Below are positions 20,719-29,245 of a stretch of 64,000 bases of DNA, piece by piece. The translations under genes and the position numbers were made by a program. The notes below the pieces were generated by a model. That model made no database searches, was not told the origin of the DNA, and saw only the letters and a program-made list of their open reading frames with translations. Each line of letters starts with the position of its first letter. Within the stretch, counting starts at the first letter, position 1. Source of the DNA: Bacteroidota bacterium (GTDB lineage Bacteria; Bacteroidota; Bacteroidia; UKL13-3); assembly GCA_027482225.1 (NCBI GenBank), contig JAIXWD010000005.1, positions 1-64,000 on the forward strand. The letters run 5' to 3'.

Positions 20719-23700
20719 TTATTGAGTGAGTATTAGTTTTTGATTAACTACGCCTGATTCTGTTTTAACACTTACCGTATAAATTCCAGGAGTTGTTTTT
20801 AATCTTACCTCTAAAACAGATTGTTTTGTTTCGTTTGAAGTGTAGCTCCAAATTAATTGTCCTATGCTGTTAAATATATCTACTTGTTCAATATTGCTAT
20901 TTAAAACATCTATTGCAAAGCTTCCATTGTTAGGATTCGGATAGATTTGAACCTTATTACTTATTGATAATTCATTTGTTCCAACACTACCTACATTCAC
21001 ATTCAAATCTGATGAATCACTGCAACCTCCTGCATTGGTAACTTTAACCGATACCTTACCTAGCATCGACTGTGAACCCCAAGCAACCTGAACCACATTG
21101 GTGTTTTGACCACTTGCCACAACACCGCCTGTAATGTTCCATAAATAATTTACACCTGTTTGTTGCCCTACAATGTAGTTATTCATAGCTAAGGTAGCAA
21201 CAGTTGTTGGGCCAGTTATAATACCAGCCGTTGGTTTAACGCCTGAAGTTATGGTATCAAATTTGGTTACCACTACTTGGTTATTATCTTTTACCCTAAT
21301 TGTATAAATACCACCCGATAATGCATTGAACATGTTACTTGTTTGGTATGATCCGTTATTTAATGCATACATATATGGTGGATTACCTCCGCTTGCTGTT
21401 ATACTAATACTTCCATCATTTTTTCCTGAACACGTCTCGTTTACTTTGGCAGTAGTTAATGATAATGGAGTACCACCAATTGCAACAGTTAAAGTATCTG
21501 CAGCACCACAATTACCTTTAGATACAGCTGCAATGATTCTCCCAACACCAACTAATGAAGGCCATTGTACTTGTATAGAAGTGGTTCCATTTCCAGATAA
21601 CAATGTACCGTTGATCACACTCCATGTATAACTTGCACCTGATTGAGCCGCAATACTGTATGATTGTGTGCTGCTAACAGGTACACCATTTAATCCACTT
21701 ATGCCACCTACGGTAATAGCTGTTGGGTTGGTTAGCGTATCTTTTTTAGATACCACATTATTCTGTGCATCTTTTACATCTATATTATAAATACCAGCTA
21801 TTAAGTTGTTAAAGGCATTGCTCGTTTGATAAGTTCCTCCATTAATACGATAGGTATAAGGAGCAGTTCCACCACTACCGTTTACGGTTATACTACCATT
21901 TGCCTCGCCTGCACATAACGGATTTTGCTTGGTAGAAGTTACACCTAAAGGTTGAGGGCTAATGGAAATGGTTAATGAATCTGTTGCACCACAATTGCCT
22001 TTATTCACTGTAACGATTATTTTCCCAACACCGCTGCTAGCTGGCCATTGTACTTGTATAGCTGTAGTTCCATTTCCTGATAATAGCGTTCCATTAATCA
22101 CACTCCATATGTAACTAGCACCCGATTGAGCCGCAATACTATATGATTGTGTACTACTAACAGGAACATTATTCAATCCAGTAATTACACCCACGGAAAC
22201 CACTGGTGGATTAACCAAGGTATCCTTTTTAGTTGCAATATTGTTTATCGCATCTTTAATATCTACAGTATAAATACCTGCAATAAGGTTATTAAATGTA
22301 TTACTGCTTTGGTAGGCACCTCCATTAATACGATAGGTATATGGAGTGGTACCACCTGTTCCGTTAACGGTGATGCTACCTGTAGCTTCACCACCACATA
22401 ACGGATTTTGTTTGATAGTGGTTAAACCTAAAGGCTGAGGGTTTGCTCCAGAGCAGCTGATGTAGTTCACTTTGGTTATGGAATCTTTACATCCATTAAT
22501 CTTATGCTGTGCAATGAGTTTAACAGTATATTGACCATTGTTGTTATAGGTTTTAAATAGAATTTGATTGTTGGTCGAATCTGTTATTCCATCTCCCCAT
22601 TTCCAAAAATAGTTGTAATCGTTTAAAGGTTGTGTTTGATTTGCAAAAGTAAAATCAAAAGGAGGAGCTGTAACTACTTGCCTGTTGGATGAGAAATTAG
22701 GATTAAAAGTTGAATTTGCTTTACTGATAGAAAAAGTGAGCTCACTTCTACAGCCAGCTGAAGTTGATACTACCAACTTGTATATACCAGCATCAGTATA
22801 AGATTCAATAATATTTTGATTGGATAAACCAAACCCATCTTTACTCCATGATATTTGTTTAGGTCCAGTATTGCTTGTAGTTGCACCAATAGTGAAAATT
22901 GAATTTAATCCACATACAACAAGTGTATTAGTGGCTGAAGAAAAATTCCCTGCTGTACTTATTTGTAAGTTTAACAAGTCTGTTACAGTAACTAAATAGG
23001 TTTTTATGGTTTGACCAGCATTATTTTTTACTAAATAAGTTGTTGTTTGCGAAGGAGCATCTTGTATTAACCCTGTTCCAAGACTGGTTGTACCTTTAAA
23101 TAAATTACAGTTTATAAGATTGAACGTGATTATTTTTCCTTTGCAAATATTGGTATCCGAAATGCTGAATAATGGATTATAGTTTCTAAAACTGCTCATC
23201 TTAAAGTATGCCACAACAGATCGTTTATTAAAAAACGCATTACCAGGAATATGCCCAAGCCAGCCACTCGTTCTTACATAAGAATACATATGAAAAGCTT
23301 CAAATCCACCTGAATACGATTGATTCGTTATTCCGCCCCAACTTCCTTGGCCTTGTTCAGATTTAATAAGATATCCGAAATAGTTAGGTCTTTTAGTTCC
23401 GGGTGGAAGTGGATAAAGTGAAGGGTCTCTTTGGTAAATCATTACTCCAGTATCTGCGCCAATCACTCCTGATCTAAATTGTATACTGTAACCGAATACC
23501 TTGGATGTATCTGCAAATCCAACCTTCATATTATTTGGAGCCTTAAATCGTTTTACATCTAATATCCAGCTGTTTTCAAACCCCCCCATAGAATTAATAA
23601 CTTCGGTTGAGTCATTTCGAGTTAAAATAATGGTGTCTTTTTTAAAGTAATTGGTTTGCGTTAAAGATATGCTATCCCAATTTCCAAGAGGCATACTAAA

Positions 23701-24534
23701 TTTAGTCCCATTACTAAACGTTCCAAGTCTAATATTTGATCTCGTATACCAAGTTATGATTAAAGTATCTTTAACCGCTACTCTATTATTTGCACCAATA
23801 GTAATAGAATCGGTATTTCTTACATAGAGGTATGGAATCTCAATAGAGTCAAGATTCACACTATCTAAAACATTAACCTTAAGGTTTGGGTCGTAATTAT
23901 CTAACATTGGATCTCTAGCATCTATCATCGCCCCGGCAGATAAACTCACAAATCTATTTCTATTTCCAAATTCATCTACTCTATAGGATAAACTATCCTT
24001 CATCAAGAAATCAATAAATCTACTAGCAAAAGGATCAATCCAATCGGCCTGACTATACCAACCAGAATAAAATGGCCCAATTTGCGCAGTTGTATTAACC
24101 ACTAATTTATACCCTGTAATTTGTAGTGGAGCACTTCCACCAGCTTGGAAAAATACAGTAGTGTTTATGGTAAACGGATATGTTCCAGTATTTAAGTTAA
24201 CATTACTTGATTGGATAATTAAACAGCCGCTATTTCCAGCAAAAAGAATACCATTACTAGGGCTTGTTGAAGTGCTAAACCCAGCAGGTAAACCCACAAC
24301 GCCATTTATTACAATTCTGTTAACGGCTATACCACTAATGGATGTAGGAGAAAAGAATTGAATGTTGGATTGATAAGGGCTACCAATTGTTGCTACTGGC
24401 AAATTCGTTACCGTATCTGGATACTGAAGTTGAGAAGAATTAACCATGATGGTTCCACATTGTGCAAATAGCATTGGGCTTATCAAACTAGTGATGATAA
24501 GCAGCAATATTTTTTGAAGTATACGTTTTTTCAT
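20719..24534 (-). CDS. T9SS-exported cell-surface protein with PKD and SprB-type repeats
   Basis: 1271 residues. A signal peptide (KILLLIITSLISPMLFAQ) is followed by a region of about 450 residues of unknown fold, an Ig-like stretch, a PKD domain (WKWGDGITDSTNN, about residue 645) and three tandem units of about 161 residues (699-1183). Each unit pairs an SprB-type repeat (GSITVNGTGGTTPYTYRING) with a second beta domain (YSIAAQSGASYIWSV). The last ~80 residues are a T9SS type A sorting domain (VQIYPNPNNGSFAIDV, then GIYTVSVKTESG), so the protein is exported through the outer membrane and anchored or released. SprB itself is a gliding adhesin; an adhesive role here is inferred. Confidence 0.9.
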   Translation of the reverse strand: MKKRILQKILLLIITSLISPMLFAQCGTIMVNSSQLQYPDTVTNLPVATIGSPYQSNIQFFSPTSISGIAVNRIVINGVVGLPAGFSTSTSPSNGILFAGNSGCLIIQSSNVNLNTGTYPFTINTTVFFQAGGSAPLQITGYKLVVNTTAQIGPFYSGWYSQADWIDPFASRFIDFLMKDSLSYRVDEFGNRNRFVSLSAGAMIDARDPMLDNYDPNLKVNVLDSVNLDSIEIPYLYVRNTDSITIGANNRVAVKDTLIITWYTRSNIRLGTFSNGTKFSMPLGNWDSISLTQTNYFKKDTIILTRNDSTEVINSMGGFENSWILDVKRFKAPNNMKVGFADTSKVFGYSIQFRSGVIGADTGVMIYQRDPSLYPLPPGTKRPNYFGYLIKSEQGQGSWGGITNQSYSGGFEAFHMYSYVRTSGWLGHIPGNAFFNKRSVVAYFKMSSFRNYNPLFSISDTNICKGKIITFNLINCNLFKGTTSLGTGLIQDAPSQTTTYLVKNNAGQTIKTYLVTVTDLLNLQISTAGNFSSATNTLVVCGLNSIFTIGATTSNTGPKQISWSKDGFGLSNQNIIESYTDAGIYKLVVSTSAGCRSELTFSISKANSTFNPNFSSNRQVVTAPPFDFTFANQTQPLNDYNYFWKWGDGITDSTNNQILFKTYNNNGQYTVKLIAQHKINGCKDSITKVNYISCSGANPQPLGLTTIKQNPLCGGEATGSITVNGTGGTTPYTYRINGGAYQSSNTFNNLIAGIYTVDIKDAINNIATKKDTLVNPPVVSVGVITGLNNVPVSSTQSYSIAAQSGASYIWSVINGTLLSGNGTTAIQVQWPASSGVGKIIVTVNKGNCGATDSLTISISPQPLGVTSTKQNPLCAGEANGSITVNGSGGTAPYTYRINGGTYQTSNAFNNLIAGIYNIDVKDAQNNVVSKKDTLTNPTAITVGGISGLNGVPVSSTQSYSIAAQSGASYTWSVINGTLLSGNGTTSIQVQWPSLVGVGRIIAAVSKGNCGAADTLTVAIGGTPLSLTTAKVNETCSGKNDGSISITASGGNPPYMYALNNGSYQTSNMFNALSGGIYTIRVKDNNQVVVTKFDTITSGVKPTAGIITGPTTVATLAMNNYIVGQQTGVNYLWNITGGVVASGQNTNVVQVAWGSQSMLGKVSVKVTNAGGCSDSSDLNVNVGSVGTNELSISNKVQIYPNPNNGSFAIDVLNSNIEQVDIFNSIGQLIWSYTSNETKQSVLEVRLKTTPGIYTVSVKTESGVVNQKLILTQ
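20985..22440 (-). repeat. Three tandem ~483-bp coding repeats
   Basis: Units begin at about 22437, 21953 and 21470 and run towards lower coordinates. The first two are nearly identical over long stretches (for example the blocks at 22321-22340 and 21837-21856); the third is more diverged. The repeats are in frame and encode paired SprB/beta domains. Confidence 0.8.
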
Positions 24535-24570
24535 GGCTCTAACTTATGCTTTTTAAAATTATAAAAAAAA

Positions 24571-24587
24571 TCCAAGTTCGTCCAAGT
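24571..24587. promoter_or_regulatory. Direct repeat TCCAAGT, 10-bp period
   Basis: TCCAAGT occurs at 24571-24577 and 24581-24587, one helical turn apart, in the 85-bp gap between the divergent T9SS cargo gene and the helix-turn-helix gene. It could be a regulator site; no protein is assigned. Confidence 0.3.
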
Positions 24588-24619
24588 AAACTTATATTAT
24601 TAAATATTAATATTGACTG

Positions 24620-25147
24620 GTGAATGTATTAAAAACTAAAATTGAATTGCGCTATGGTAAAACCATCACATTTTCGGCCGAGTGCAATAAATTAGCCTCG
24701 CACATTTATCATGCAATTGGCGTTAAAATAAGTGCACAAACACTACGCAGGGTTTTAGGGTTTATAAACGATGGTTCAAAGCCTGGCAAATCTACCCTGA
24801 AAGTAATTTGTGACTATTGTAATATAGAGCATGTAGAGGAGTTATTCTCAAATAACGAACCTAAGTTATCTGCTATTGATATAGAGCAAATCAATTTTCT
24901 AAAAAGTTTTTATGATATTGATTTGTCTTCTGACTATGACTTTAATTACCATAAAGCTTGTGGGAACATTGCACGCAAAATCATTAATCAACCCAACTAC
25001 TTAGAAGCGCTCTCTGGTTTTTTAACCAAAAGTCCTGTTGGCCAAATTTTCTTTTTCGAGCGCTTCCCATACATTGATGGGATTACAGGTGATTACAAGA
25101 AATATTTTAAGCGATATGTACAAAGTAAAAAAAAACATGAGGCGTAG
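24620..25147 (+). CDS. N-terminal half of an amber-split helix-turn-helix regulator
   Basis: A GTG start and 175 codons ending in TAG. Residues ~15-75 form a predicted DNA-binding helix-turn-helix region (IGVKISAQTLRRVLGF, then SKPGKSTLKVICDYCNIEH) of a kind common in uncharacterised Bacteroidota proteins, where it precedes a TPR-like helical region of 200-300 residues. Here the frame stops after FFFERFPYIDG...KKHEA, but the same frame continues directly after the TAG as LFGNCILFIGAYLNQ. This and the following entry are therefore best read as one interrupted gene spanning 24620-25780. It is divergent from the T9SS cargo gene. Confidence 0.65.
   Translation: MNVLKTKIELRYGKTITFSAECNKLASHIYHAIGVKISAQTLRRVLGFINDGSKPGKSTLKVICDYCNIEHVEELFSNNEPKLSAIDIEQINFLKSFYDIDLSSDYDFNYHKACGNIARKIINQPNYLEALSGFLTKSPVGQIFFFERFPYIDGITGDYKKYFKRYVQSKKKHEA
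25145..25147 (+). other. In-frame amber codon interrupting the regulator gene
   Basis: TAG in the context GCG TAG CTT. The upstream and downstream reading frames are the same (both start positions leave remainder 2 on division by 3), and the 18 bases between the TAG and the next possible start encode LFGNCI, in keeping with the hydrophobic helix that follows. Confidence 0.7.
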
Positions 25148-25165
25148 CTTTTTGGCAACTGTATT

Positions 25166-25780
25166 TTGTTTATAGGTGCTTACCTCAATCAAAACAAAAT
25201 TGAGTTAACTGATTACCTTAAAAGGATAAACAGTATTGCAGTCCATCAGGAAATGCATCCATTTCCACAAGCACGCAAAATCATGTCAAACGTTTTGTAC
25301 CATCATCTTTTTAACAATCAAACTGAATTGGAAAAATGGAAAAAGATTGCTTTTGAAGAAGAGAAAAAGCAACTACGTGGCAATTTACCTAATGCTCATT
25401 TCCCGTTCTTTCAGTTTACCATGGCAGATGCGTTTAATCTTATTGGCGATTATGAATCTGCTTTAAAAATGATTCGTTTAGCTGATCTTGATTACAAGTG
25501 TTATGATAATGGTGTGGTTGAATTGGGATATTTCGAATGTTTTGATTTGGTAAGAGCAATTACTTATTATCACATCGGCAGAAAAGAAGATGCAACAAGG
25601 ATTTTAAATCACATTGAATCAGCGAAATTCATTTTTATCTGTCACGATTACTTTTTAATTCAACAAAAAATACTTGAATTAAACATGTGCAAATCCCCTA
25701 CAGCAAAAAAATACCTAAAGCTTAAAACAGAAGTAAATTGGCTCATCAATAAAACTGGTTTTACATTCTTTAAGATATAA
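25166..25780 (+). CDS. C-terminal half of the amber-split regulator
   Basis: An open frame of 204 codons whose only early start is a TTG at 25166 inside what looks like a continuous helix. It is rich in helical, TPR-like sequence (FNLIGDYESALKMIRLADLD; YYHIGRKEDATRILNHIE). On its own it lacks the DNA-binding region. It may be translated only by readthrough of the TAG, by reinitiation, or not at all. A hairpin terminator follows directly, so the transcription unit is intact. Confidence 0.6.
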   Translation: MFIGAYLNQNKIELTDYLKRINSIAVHQEMHPFPQARKIMSNVLYHHLFNNQTELEKWKKIAFEEEKKQLRGNLPNAHFPFFQFTMADAFNLIGDYESALKMIRLADLDYKCYDNGVVELGYFECFDLVRAITYYHIGRKEDATRILNHIESAKFIFICHDYFLIQQKILELNMCKSPTAKKYLKLKTEVNWLINKTGFTFFKI

Positions 25781-25816
25781 AAAATCCCTCACCGATTTTA
25801 CGCGATGAGGGATTTT
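25781..25816. terminator. Bidirectional intrinsic terminator
   Basis: AAAATCCCTCA (25781-25791) pairs perfectly with TGAGGGATTTT (25806-25816). T-rich sequence flanks it on both strands, so it can serve the regulator on the plus strand and the ribonucleotide reductase (stop at 25868) on the minus strand. Confidence 0.85.
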
Positions 25817-25867: not shown

Positions 25868-28800
25868 TTATGAACAACCTGTTTGTGTACCACAGTTCAT
25901 GCATTTGTAACAAGCACCACTACGTATTGTTAAACTACCGCAACTAGGGCAAGCAGGGCTATCGCCAAAGCTCTTTAAGTATGCTTGCGTTTGGTCAACT
26001 GCGGTTGCGCTTACTTCAGGCAATTTATTAGATGGTTCAACCATTGGTGTTGATTTCATAAAACCTATTGATGCAGGTGCTGCAGCGGGAGTATTTACTG
26101 GGTTAATTACTACATTTTGCATGTTTGCTGATGGTAAATTATGTTTTTGATTTACCGCCAAGTGCGAACGTTGCTCTTCAGTAGCAGGTACCTGAATAAA
26201 ATCTTCACGGCCTAAGTATTCAAATCCTAACATGCGGAACATGTAATCGATAATTGAAGTGGCATTCTTGATGTTACCATGACCAGTTACCATACCTGCA
26301 GGCTCAAAACGGGTAAAGGTAAATTTATCAACGTACTCTTCTAGCGGCACACCATATTGTAAACCTAACGATACCGCAATAGAGAAGCAGTTCATTAACG
26401 AACGAAGTGTTGCACCTTCTTTATGTAAGTCAACAAAAATTTCACCTAACGTTCCATCTTCGTACTCTCCTGTGCGAACAAATATGGTTTGTCCACCAAC
26501 GGTAGCTTTTTGTGTAAACCCACTGCGTTTGCCAGGCAATTGTTTGCGTTCTACAATACGAGCTAACTTACGTTTAAACTCTGTATCATGACTGCGGTTT
26601 AGTATTGCTGTAGCAGCATCTAAAACTTGTTCAGGAGTTAATTCTCCAACAGGTTTGTTTGCATCAGCACCTAAAACAGATTCAACAGCTTCTTGTACTT
26701 CTTCCTCTTCCTTAACATCAGATTTGTTGCTAAGCGGTTGAGATAATTTACAACCATCGCGATAGAGTGCATTTGCTTTTAAACCCATGCTCCAACTAAG
26801 ATGGTAGCATTCTTTAATGTCGTCTACAGAAGCCTCATTAGGTAAGTTGATGGTTTTTGATATAGCACCCGATAAGAAAGGTTGTGCGGCAGCCATCATT
26901 CTGATGTGACCAGTAGCAGCAATGTAACGCTCTCCGATGTTACCACATTTGTTAGCACAATCAAACACTGCTAAGTGTTCCTCTTTTAAAGCAGGTGCAC
27001 CTTCTACTGTCATTGTTCCGCATACATAATTGTTTGCTTCTTCAATTTCGGCACGGGTAAAACCTAATTTACGTAACAAATTAAATTTAGGGCTGTTATA
27101 TTCTTCTGGTATAAAGCCTAAACGTTGCATGCACTCCTCACCTAATGTCCAGTGGTTAAATGCAAAGCCAATTTCAAATGCACCTGATGCTGCTTTATCT
27201 AATTTAGCAATTTCTTCTGCTGTAAATCCACGGAAAGCTAAACTCTCTGGATTGATGTGTGGTGCACCAGTTAGGGTAGCATGACCAATAGCATATTTAA
27301 TAATAGCATCAATTTCTTCGGCAGTATAGCCTAAATTTTTTAATGATGCAGGTACTGATTGATTGATGATTTTAAAGTATCCACCACCTGATAATTTTTT
27401 GAATTTAACCAAAGCAAAATCTGGCTCAATACCGGTTGTATCACAATCCATTACTAAACCAATGGTTCCAGTTGGAGCGATTACAGTTGTTTGCGCATTG
27501 CGATAACCATGTTTTTCACCTAATTGAACTGCGTTATCCCACGAAGTGCATGCAGCACTAAGTAAATAATCAGGGCAATATTTAGGATCGATTCCAACAG
27601 GTCTGATGGTTAAACCTTCATACGCATCTGTTGCATTGTAAGCAGCATAGCGGTGGTTACGCATAACACGTAACATATGTGTTTTATTCTCTTCGTATTT
27701 GGCAAACGGACCTAAATGTGCAGCCATCTCTGCCGAAGTGCTGTATGCTGTACCAGTTAAGATAGCAGTAATAGCTCCACAAATTGCAAATGCTTTAGGT
27801 GAATCGTAAGGAATACCTGCTACCATTAAAGCCGTACCTAAGTTGGCATAACCTAAACCTAATGTGCGGTACTCATATGATAACTGAGCAACTTCTTGCG
27901 ATGGGAATTGTGCCATCAAAACAGAAACTTCTAATACAATAGTCCAAATGCGTGAAGCATGTTCAATACCTTTAACATCAAACTCGCTGGTTGCAGGATT
28001 GAAGAAACGCATTAAATTTAATGACGCTAAGTTACATGCTGTATTATCCAAAAACATGTACTCAGAACAAGGATTAGATGCATTAATAGTTCCACCTTCA
28101 GGACAAGTATGCCATTCGTTAATGGTAGAATCATATTGTACACCAGGATCAGCACATGCCCAAGCAGCATCACCTATCATATCCCACAATTCTTTTGCAG
28201 GAATAGATTTCATGATATCACCTTTTGCACGTCCAACTAAATTCCAATTTTTACCTTCTTCTAACGCTTTAAAAAATGCATGAGGTATACGAACTGAGTT
28301 GTTTGAGTTTTGACCCGAAACAGTTGCATAAGCTTCACCTTCGTAATCGCTAGGATATCCAGCAGCTATTAACGCAGCTACTTTTTTCTCTTCGTTCTTT
28401 TTCCAATTAATAAACTCTACAATCTCTGGATGATCTAAATCTAAGCACACCATTTTAGCAGCACGTCTGGTTGTTCCGCCAGATTTAATTGCACCTGCAG
28501 CGCGATCACCAATTTTTAAGAAACTCATTAAACCCGATGATGTTCCGCCACCCGAAAGTTTTTCGCCTGCACCACGTACGCGACTAAAGTTTGTTCCTAC
28601 ACCAGAGCCATATTTAAATATACGTGCCTCACGAACCCAAAGATCCATGATACCACCCTCGTTTACCAAATCATCATTTACAGATAAAATAAAACAAGCG
28701 TGTGGTTGAGGACGTTCGTATGCCGAAGTAGACCTCTCTAATTTACCTGTATTAGGATTTACAAAGTAATGACCTTGTGGTTTACCAGTGATGCCATATG

Positions 28801-29245
28801 AGCTATGTAAACCGGTATTAAACCATTGAGGAGAGTTTGGTGCCGCATATTGGCCAATAATCATAAAAACCAACTCATCATAAAACTTATTTGCATCTTC
28901 TGCAGAAGCAAAGTAACCGTATTGTTCAGCCCACGATTTCCAGCAATGCGCCATACGATGTGCAACTTGCTTGATGGATGTTTCGCTTCCACTTGAACCA
29001 TCAGGCATAGGAACGCCTGCTTTACGGAAATACTTTTGTGCTAAAACATCTGTAGCTACTTGGCTCCAAAATTTTGGAACTTCTACATTGTTTAACTCAA
29101 ATACTTTTTCTCCATTCGGATTTTTAATTACGGAGGTACGGCTGTCGTATTCAAACAAGTCGAATGCGCTTACGCCATCCTTAGTAAAGAAGCGATCCAC
29201 GCGAAGGCCGCTTTGATCAGTTTTTTTAGGTGATTTGGTGCTCAT
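25868..29245 (-). CDS. nrdJ: Adenosylcobalamin-dependent (class II) ribonucleoside-diphosphate reductase
   Basis: 1125 residues, the long class II form. It makes deoxyribonucleotides independently of oxygen with a B12 radical. Class II marks are [22 protein letters not shown], the [10 protein letters not shown] region, and a C-terminal zinc ribbon ([21 protein letters not shown]) that replaces the redox Cys tail of class I enzymes. No nrdB-like small subunit gene is next to it, as expected for class II. No B12 riboswitch was seen upstream. Confidence 0.95.

Follow-up and report, generated by a model that had tools for sequence, protein, structure and literature searches.

The gene at 24620-25780 of the analyzed window (the whole stretch of 64,000 nucleotides from a Bacteroidota bacterium) is best explained as an accessory gene that has probably recently acquired an ordinary nonsense mutation, Gln176 to TAG, with probable loss of function. 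A single 386-aa gene, coding for an HTH-like N-terminus and a helical C-terminal domain, would have gained this one substitution, and ribosomes would then stop after 175 aa. The resulting product would keep the HTH-like domain and lack most of the C-terminal domain; it would be cut inside the best-kept motif of that domain and would most likely be non-functional. We infer that the T at 25145 is real in the organism. The features of the region are as follows.

20719-24534, minus strand: divergent gene for a secreted protein that has SprB repeats, PKD domains and a tail for type IX secretion
24535-24619, no strand: divergent spacer of 85 nt, holding a direct repeat (candidate operator)
24620-25147, plus strand: N-terminal half, 175 aa, with the HTH-like domain (residues 1-78) and the first part of the C-terminal helical domain
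25145-25147, plus strand: in-frame TAG, codon 176; Gln (CAG, CAA) in two congeneric orthologues
25148-25780, plus strand: remainder of the split gene, 210 codons and TAA, with most of the C-terminal helical domain, undecayed
25166-25780, plus strand: second-half ORF with a TTG start, the only start-to-stop ORF listed there
25781-25816, no strand: terminator-like hairpin, flanked by the convergent genes for the regulator-like protein and ribonucleotide reductase
25868-29245, minus strand: class II (B12-dependent) ribonucleotide reductase, convergent neighbor

The plus-strand region 24620-25780 is a single 387-codon frame, opening with GTG at 24620 and closing with TAA at 25778-25780, and its sole internal stop is the TAG at codon 176. 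A previous reading made from the sequence alone described two open frames in one phase separated only by this TAG, and both the coordinates and the stop were exactly as it gave them. The 210 open codons after the TAG would arise by chance with a probability of about 7e-7 (first-order Markov model of the window, 0.065 stops per codon). TAG ends 9 of the 45 long non-overlapping ORFs of the window, i.e., the first half of the split gene and 8 of the 44 others. The next in-frame stop follows after 0-25 codons in these eight, and only the split gene runs on. The TTG start of the second-half ORF lies within the motif FGNCILF and therefore probably does not mark the natural start of a gene. The split gene is single-copy in its own genome. 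A caution for annotation follows, as automatic callers would annotate this single interrupted gene as two, one for a short HTH protein and one for an orphan helical protein.

Orthologues at the same locus were detected in two of eight congeneric genomes, in both cases as uninterrupted 386-aa genes (91% and 85% identity) with no stop and with the same two neighboring genes as in the window. A search of 58 genomes (its own and 57 relatives) gave four matches: its own genome, the two full-length congeners and one genome that matched over residues 3-72 only. A profile search of 64 family genomes gave seven, i.e., the same three full-length genes and four matches to the N-terminal domain only, and a contig search returned the same two orthologues, both in metagenome-assembled Bacteroidetes genomes. 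Codon 176 is CAG in the nearest orthologue (L006) and CAA in the other (L005), so that one C-to-T transition leads from the codon of L006 to TAG, and the stop occurs in one of the three orthologous loci, that of the window. The sequence-only reading held that one gene is split by an in-frame amber codon, and indeed both halves align end to end with single 386-aa proteins; the orthologous residue, which it proposed to compare, is Gln in both congeners. Orthologues in the form of two separate genes were sought and not found, as the two congeneric orthologues and a 403-aa homologue (see below) are uninterrupted; the former rule out two separate ancestral genes. It was also observed that substitutions cluster just before and at the stop (25133-25145; codons 172, 173 and 176), producing a run of nine A.

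More distant homologues also have a sense codon at this position. A profile built from the three sequences matched 30 of 395 genomes of the class, its own included. L043, a homologue in another family, is an open frame of 403 aa whose alignment covers residues 1-360; the other matches in the class correspond to the N-terminal domain only, or to both ends set apart within longer proteins. Among nine distinct more distant homologues that reach column 176 (L044 and L071 are one place and were counted once, and the alignments of L063 and L054 are weak), seven have Gln (L043, L044, L045, L046, L049, L054 and L063), one has Asn (L047), one has Val (L053) and none has a stop. Codon 176 falls in EAQ(I/L)FGxCxLF, the motif that is best conserved in the C-terminal domain. 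The homologue in genome G376 (L044, from another family) is frameshifted a few residues beyond this motif, and its second part holds two TAA. Its state, a frameshift followed by two TAA, is not that of a natural gene split; the gene would thus have been lost independently elsewhere, unless this too is an assembly error.

To estimate the age of the stop, we counted changes on the window's branch and on the sister branch (L006), using L005 as the outgroup. Before the TAG, the window's branch had accumulated 12 nonsynonymous (N) and 3 synonymous (S) changes, and after it 8 N and 7 S; the corresponding counts on the sister branch were 4 N and 6 S before this position and 10 N and 10 S after it. 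After the stop the two branches did not differ (Fisher p = 1.0). In the N-terminal half the comparison gave p = 0.087, partly owing to clusters at codons 77-80 and 172. Neutrality over the whole window branch was disfavored (one-sided p = 0.015, 0.037 and 0.058 with transition weights of 1, 2 and 3, respectively). Relaxed constraint after the stop was not seen, as expected for a young lesion, and no other stop or frameshift occurs after the TAG in this gene, in agreement with the view that the gene shows no decay elsewhere. Because the part after the stop is undecayed, the stop is probably young. These counts would fit a stop that is young or one without consequence. The faster change of the N-terminal half on the window's branch is not accounted for by a young stop.

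The main rival, which we consider unlikely, is an error of sequencing, assembly or strain mixture, in which most of the population would carry a sense codon and TAG would be a minority allele or an error in the consensus. The otherwise undecayed gene, the full frame that is kept apart from codon 176 in all three genomes with the locus, and the origin of the contig from an assembly of 24 contigs are all consistent with such an error. However, the change is a substitution that keeps the frame, whereas indels would be the more expected error at a run of nine A, and single nonsense substitutions are presumably common in the accessory genes of real genomes. A literature search for premature stops in metagenome-assembled genomes of Bacteroidota found nothing, which says little.

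TAG is read as a stop in this genome. RF1 gave a match above the cut-off with no internal stop, and prfB itself ends in TAG. No CUA, UUA or UCA anticodon was detected among the 30 matched tRNAs (150 of 236 candidates were scored, and some expected isoacceptors are missing from the set), and a search for PylS gave no match. The intact RF1, the lack of a CUA tRNA in this set and the TAG ends of prfB and the eight other window ORFs together indicate that TAG is a stop codon, and they rule out a recoded genome in which TAG has a sense meaning. The prfB gene (L042, about 1437-1452 and 2473-2475) begins with what resembles a typical RF2 frameshift site (AGGAGGTATCTTTGA), and its terminal TAG is an RF1 stop; the one TAG that the prfA search had flagged inside prfB is this terminal codon. 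Frameshifting or slippage on the nine-A run before the TAG was rejected by reasoning: it would leave frame 0, where the second half lies, and therefore could not rescue the protein.

Functional readthrough is a further alternative, in which near-cognate tRNAs (Gln, Tyr, Lys) would rarely read UAG and the cell would make much short and little full-length protein. According to the available text of PMC11126739, reporters in E. coli grown in rich medium show mean TAG readthrough of 0.49, 0.80, 0.03 and 0.01% at 18, 25, 37 and 42 C, with UAG decoded as Tyr, Gln or Lys; thus, rates of 0.49-0.80% are reached at 18-25 C and only 0.03% at 37 C. The constraint after the stop is not lost (8 of the 15 changes there are N) and would also suit a functional readthrough gene, and in-frame stops with dN/dS <1 are described in the available part of PMC7918605 as widespread in bacterial genes, including a TAG/CAG example. 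However, a young stop accounts just as well for this constraint, the stop is kept in neither orthologue, and neither a suppressor tRNA among the 30 tRNAs nor PylS was found. The stop is followed by C and then five T. TAG followed by C had been called a leaky context in the sequence-only reading; this is contradicted for E. coli, where, in the same portion of PMC11126739, G after the stop raises readthrough and T lowers it, and C at +4 is not a leaky context. The authors of that study note partial agreement with previous studies, according to which T and C favor termination. RNA structure after the stop was not notable either (z = -1.24 for pseudoknot-free folding, matched by 20 of 200 shuffled sequences). 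Readthrough is thus very unlikely, and nothing marks the TAG at 25145-25147 as a recoding site. Of the three options raised at the outset, a fresh nonsense mutation, a sequencing error and readthrough, the first fits best and the last found no support.

The in-frame stops surveyed in PMC7918605 resemble the present case, to the extent covered by the available text, in that a single TAG stands where orthologues have CAG and the flanking frame is still constrained. In contrast, a stop entered that survey only if at least two genomes shared it, whereas here the stop is present in one of three orthologues.

The intact 386-aa protein is plausibly a transcription regulator, a role that we infer from its architecture. 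Pfam HTH families matched the single sequences below the cut-off (best E = 0.016-0.023). A profile of the N-terminal domain (24 sequences) searched against PDB gave the HTH regulator ComR as the best match (E = 0.0066) and phage CI as a weaker one (E = 0.76-0.78). AlphaFold2, run on three sequences, predicted an all-helical C-terminal part, with a mean pLDDT of 43.9 that marks the model as poor. Of the HTH and helical C-terminus that had been proposed, the helical part is predicted in this model, and the HTH is weakly suggested by the Pfam and ComR matches. PDB searches with the full-length profile or with the C-terminal domain yielded no significant match (best for the latter, E = 0.55), and no Pfam repeat was matched in the protein. 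As for a possible role in defense, AbiJ_NTD3 (E = 0.034-0.11) was below the cut-off, and Csn2 (E = 0.008) appeared in only one of the three orthologous proteins. RRNPP-type regulators consist of an HTH domain and a helical-repeat sensor. The window's protein is similar to them in having a short N-terminal HTH-like domain, with the weak match to the ComR N-terminus, followed by a C-terminal domain predicted to be all-helical; it differs in that its C-terminal domain has no significant match and in that it comes from Bacteroidota rather than Gram-positive bacteria. The ComR and CI profile matches and the helical model make a regulator composed of an HTH domain and a helical sensor plausible.

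The same two ends recur in larger proteins. In L053, and by eye in L045 and L046, an AAA/STAND-like NTPase lies between them, whereas the window's protein has no NTPase. In L053 this is an AAA domain (Pfam, below the cut-off, E = 7.9e-5); L045 and L046 have GxGKS and LLDGLDE or LIIDALDE stretches, which look STAND/NACHT-like. An HTH-like start as in the window's protein is found in L053 and L045, and the C-terminal domain is common to all three; L045 and L046 retain its EAQxFG motif, which is altered in L053. The C-terminal domain directly follows the HTH-like domain in L047 and L049 and follows the NTPase in L045 and L053; in L046 it also follows the NTPase, and an HTH-like start was not detected. 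These five proteins (L045, L046, L047, L049 and L053) apparently form an unnamed modular family of Bacteroidia. Pfam, NCBIfam and PADLOC gave no family at the cut-off or with a convincing E-value for the scanned proteins of this architecture, PADLOC had no match for L053, L047 or L049, and a literature search for a STAND NTPase with an HTH in Bacteroidota found nothing, which says little. The wider gain is the outline of an apparently unnamed architecture with an HTH-like start, an optional NTPase and a C-terminal domain with EAQxFG.

In nine ORFs of 137-227 aa, the match to the profile is confined to residues 3-110, and one might suppose that the 175-aa product is likewise a working short protein, similar to these stand-alone HTH-like ORFs. 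The faster change of the N-terminal half on the window's branch would agree with this. However, L048, L050 and L055, which have the longest tails among the ORFs shown, carry by eye a different C-terminal part and not a piece of the helical domain, and the 175-aa product ends within a conserved motif, probably within a helix (low-confidence model). A working short protein is thus extremely improbable.

The nonsense mutation would have fallen in an accessory gene. Close orthologues of the regulator-like gene occur in three of nine genus genomes, the window's included, so that its loss would be tolerated, and its presence is patchy in the genus, family and class. Four congeners lack the gene but have a ribonucleotide reductase end that could be located, and no part of the gene was seen beside it. 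Close orthologues of the divergent surface protein (E <1e-84) occur in the same three genomes; among the other six, four have only weak matches (best E from 1.1e-6 to 1.0e-4) and two have none. Owing to this shared distribution, the two genes look like one accessory pair, in which a member of the EAQxFG architecture stands divergent to a surface protein. The spacer between them has a direct repeat, TCCAAGT-tcg-TCCAAGT, at 24571-24587 (10-bp period), which is kept in all three loci except for one base and is a candidate operator, and perhaps the regulator-like protein controls the surface-protein gene. At the other end, the terminator had been described as intact; the terminator-like hairpin is present at 25781-25816, with its sequence largely kept in all three orthologous loci.

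It is conceivable that TAG is maintained as an on/off or dosage allele, with a short HTH-only main product, and that rare near-cognate decoding (favored by cold), or a population that switches between CAG and TAG, would supply the full-length regulator and tune the divergent type IX-secreted surface protein; we regard this as highly improbable. A separate observation concerns the middle of the surface-protein gene (22684-24126), which has no blastn match in L006, although both ends match at ~94%, and which L005 does match. From these alignments, it appears to be a swapped module relative to L006.
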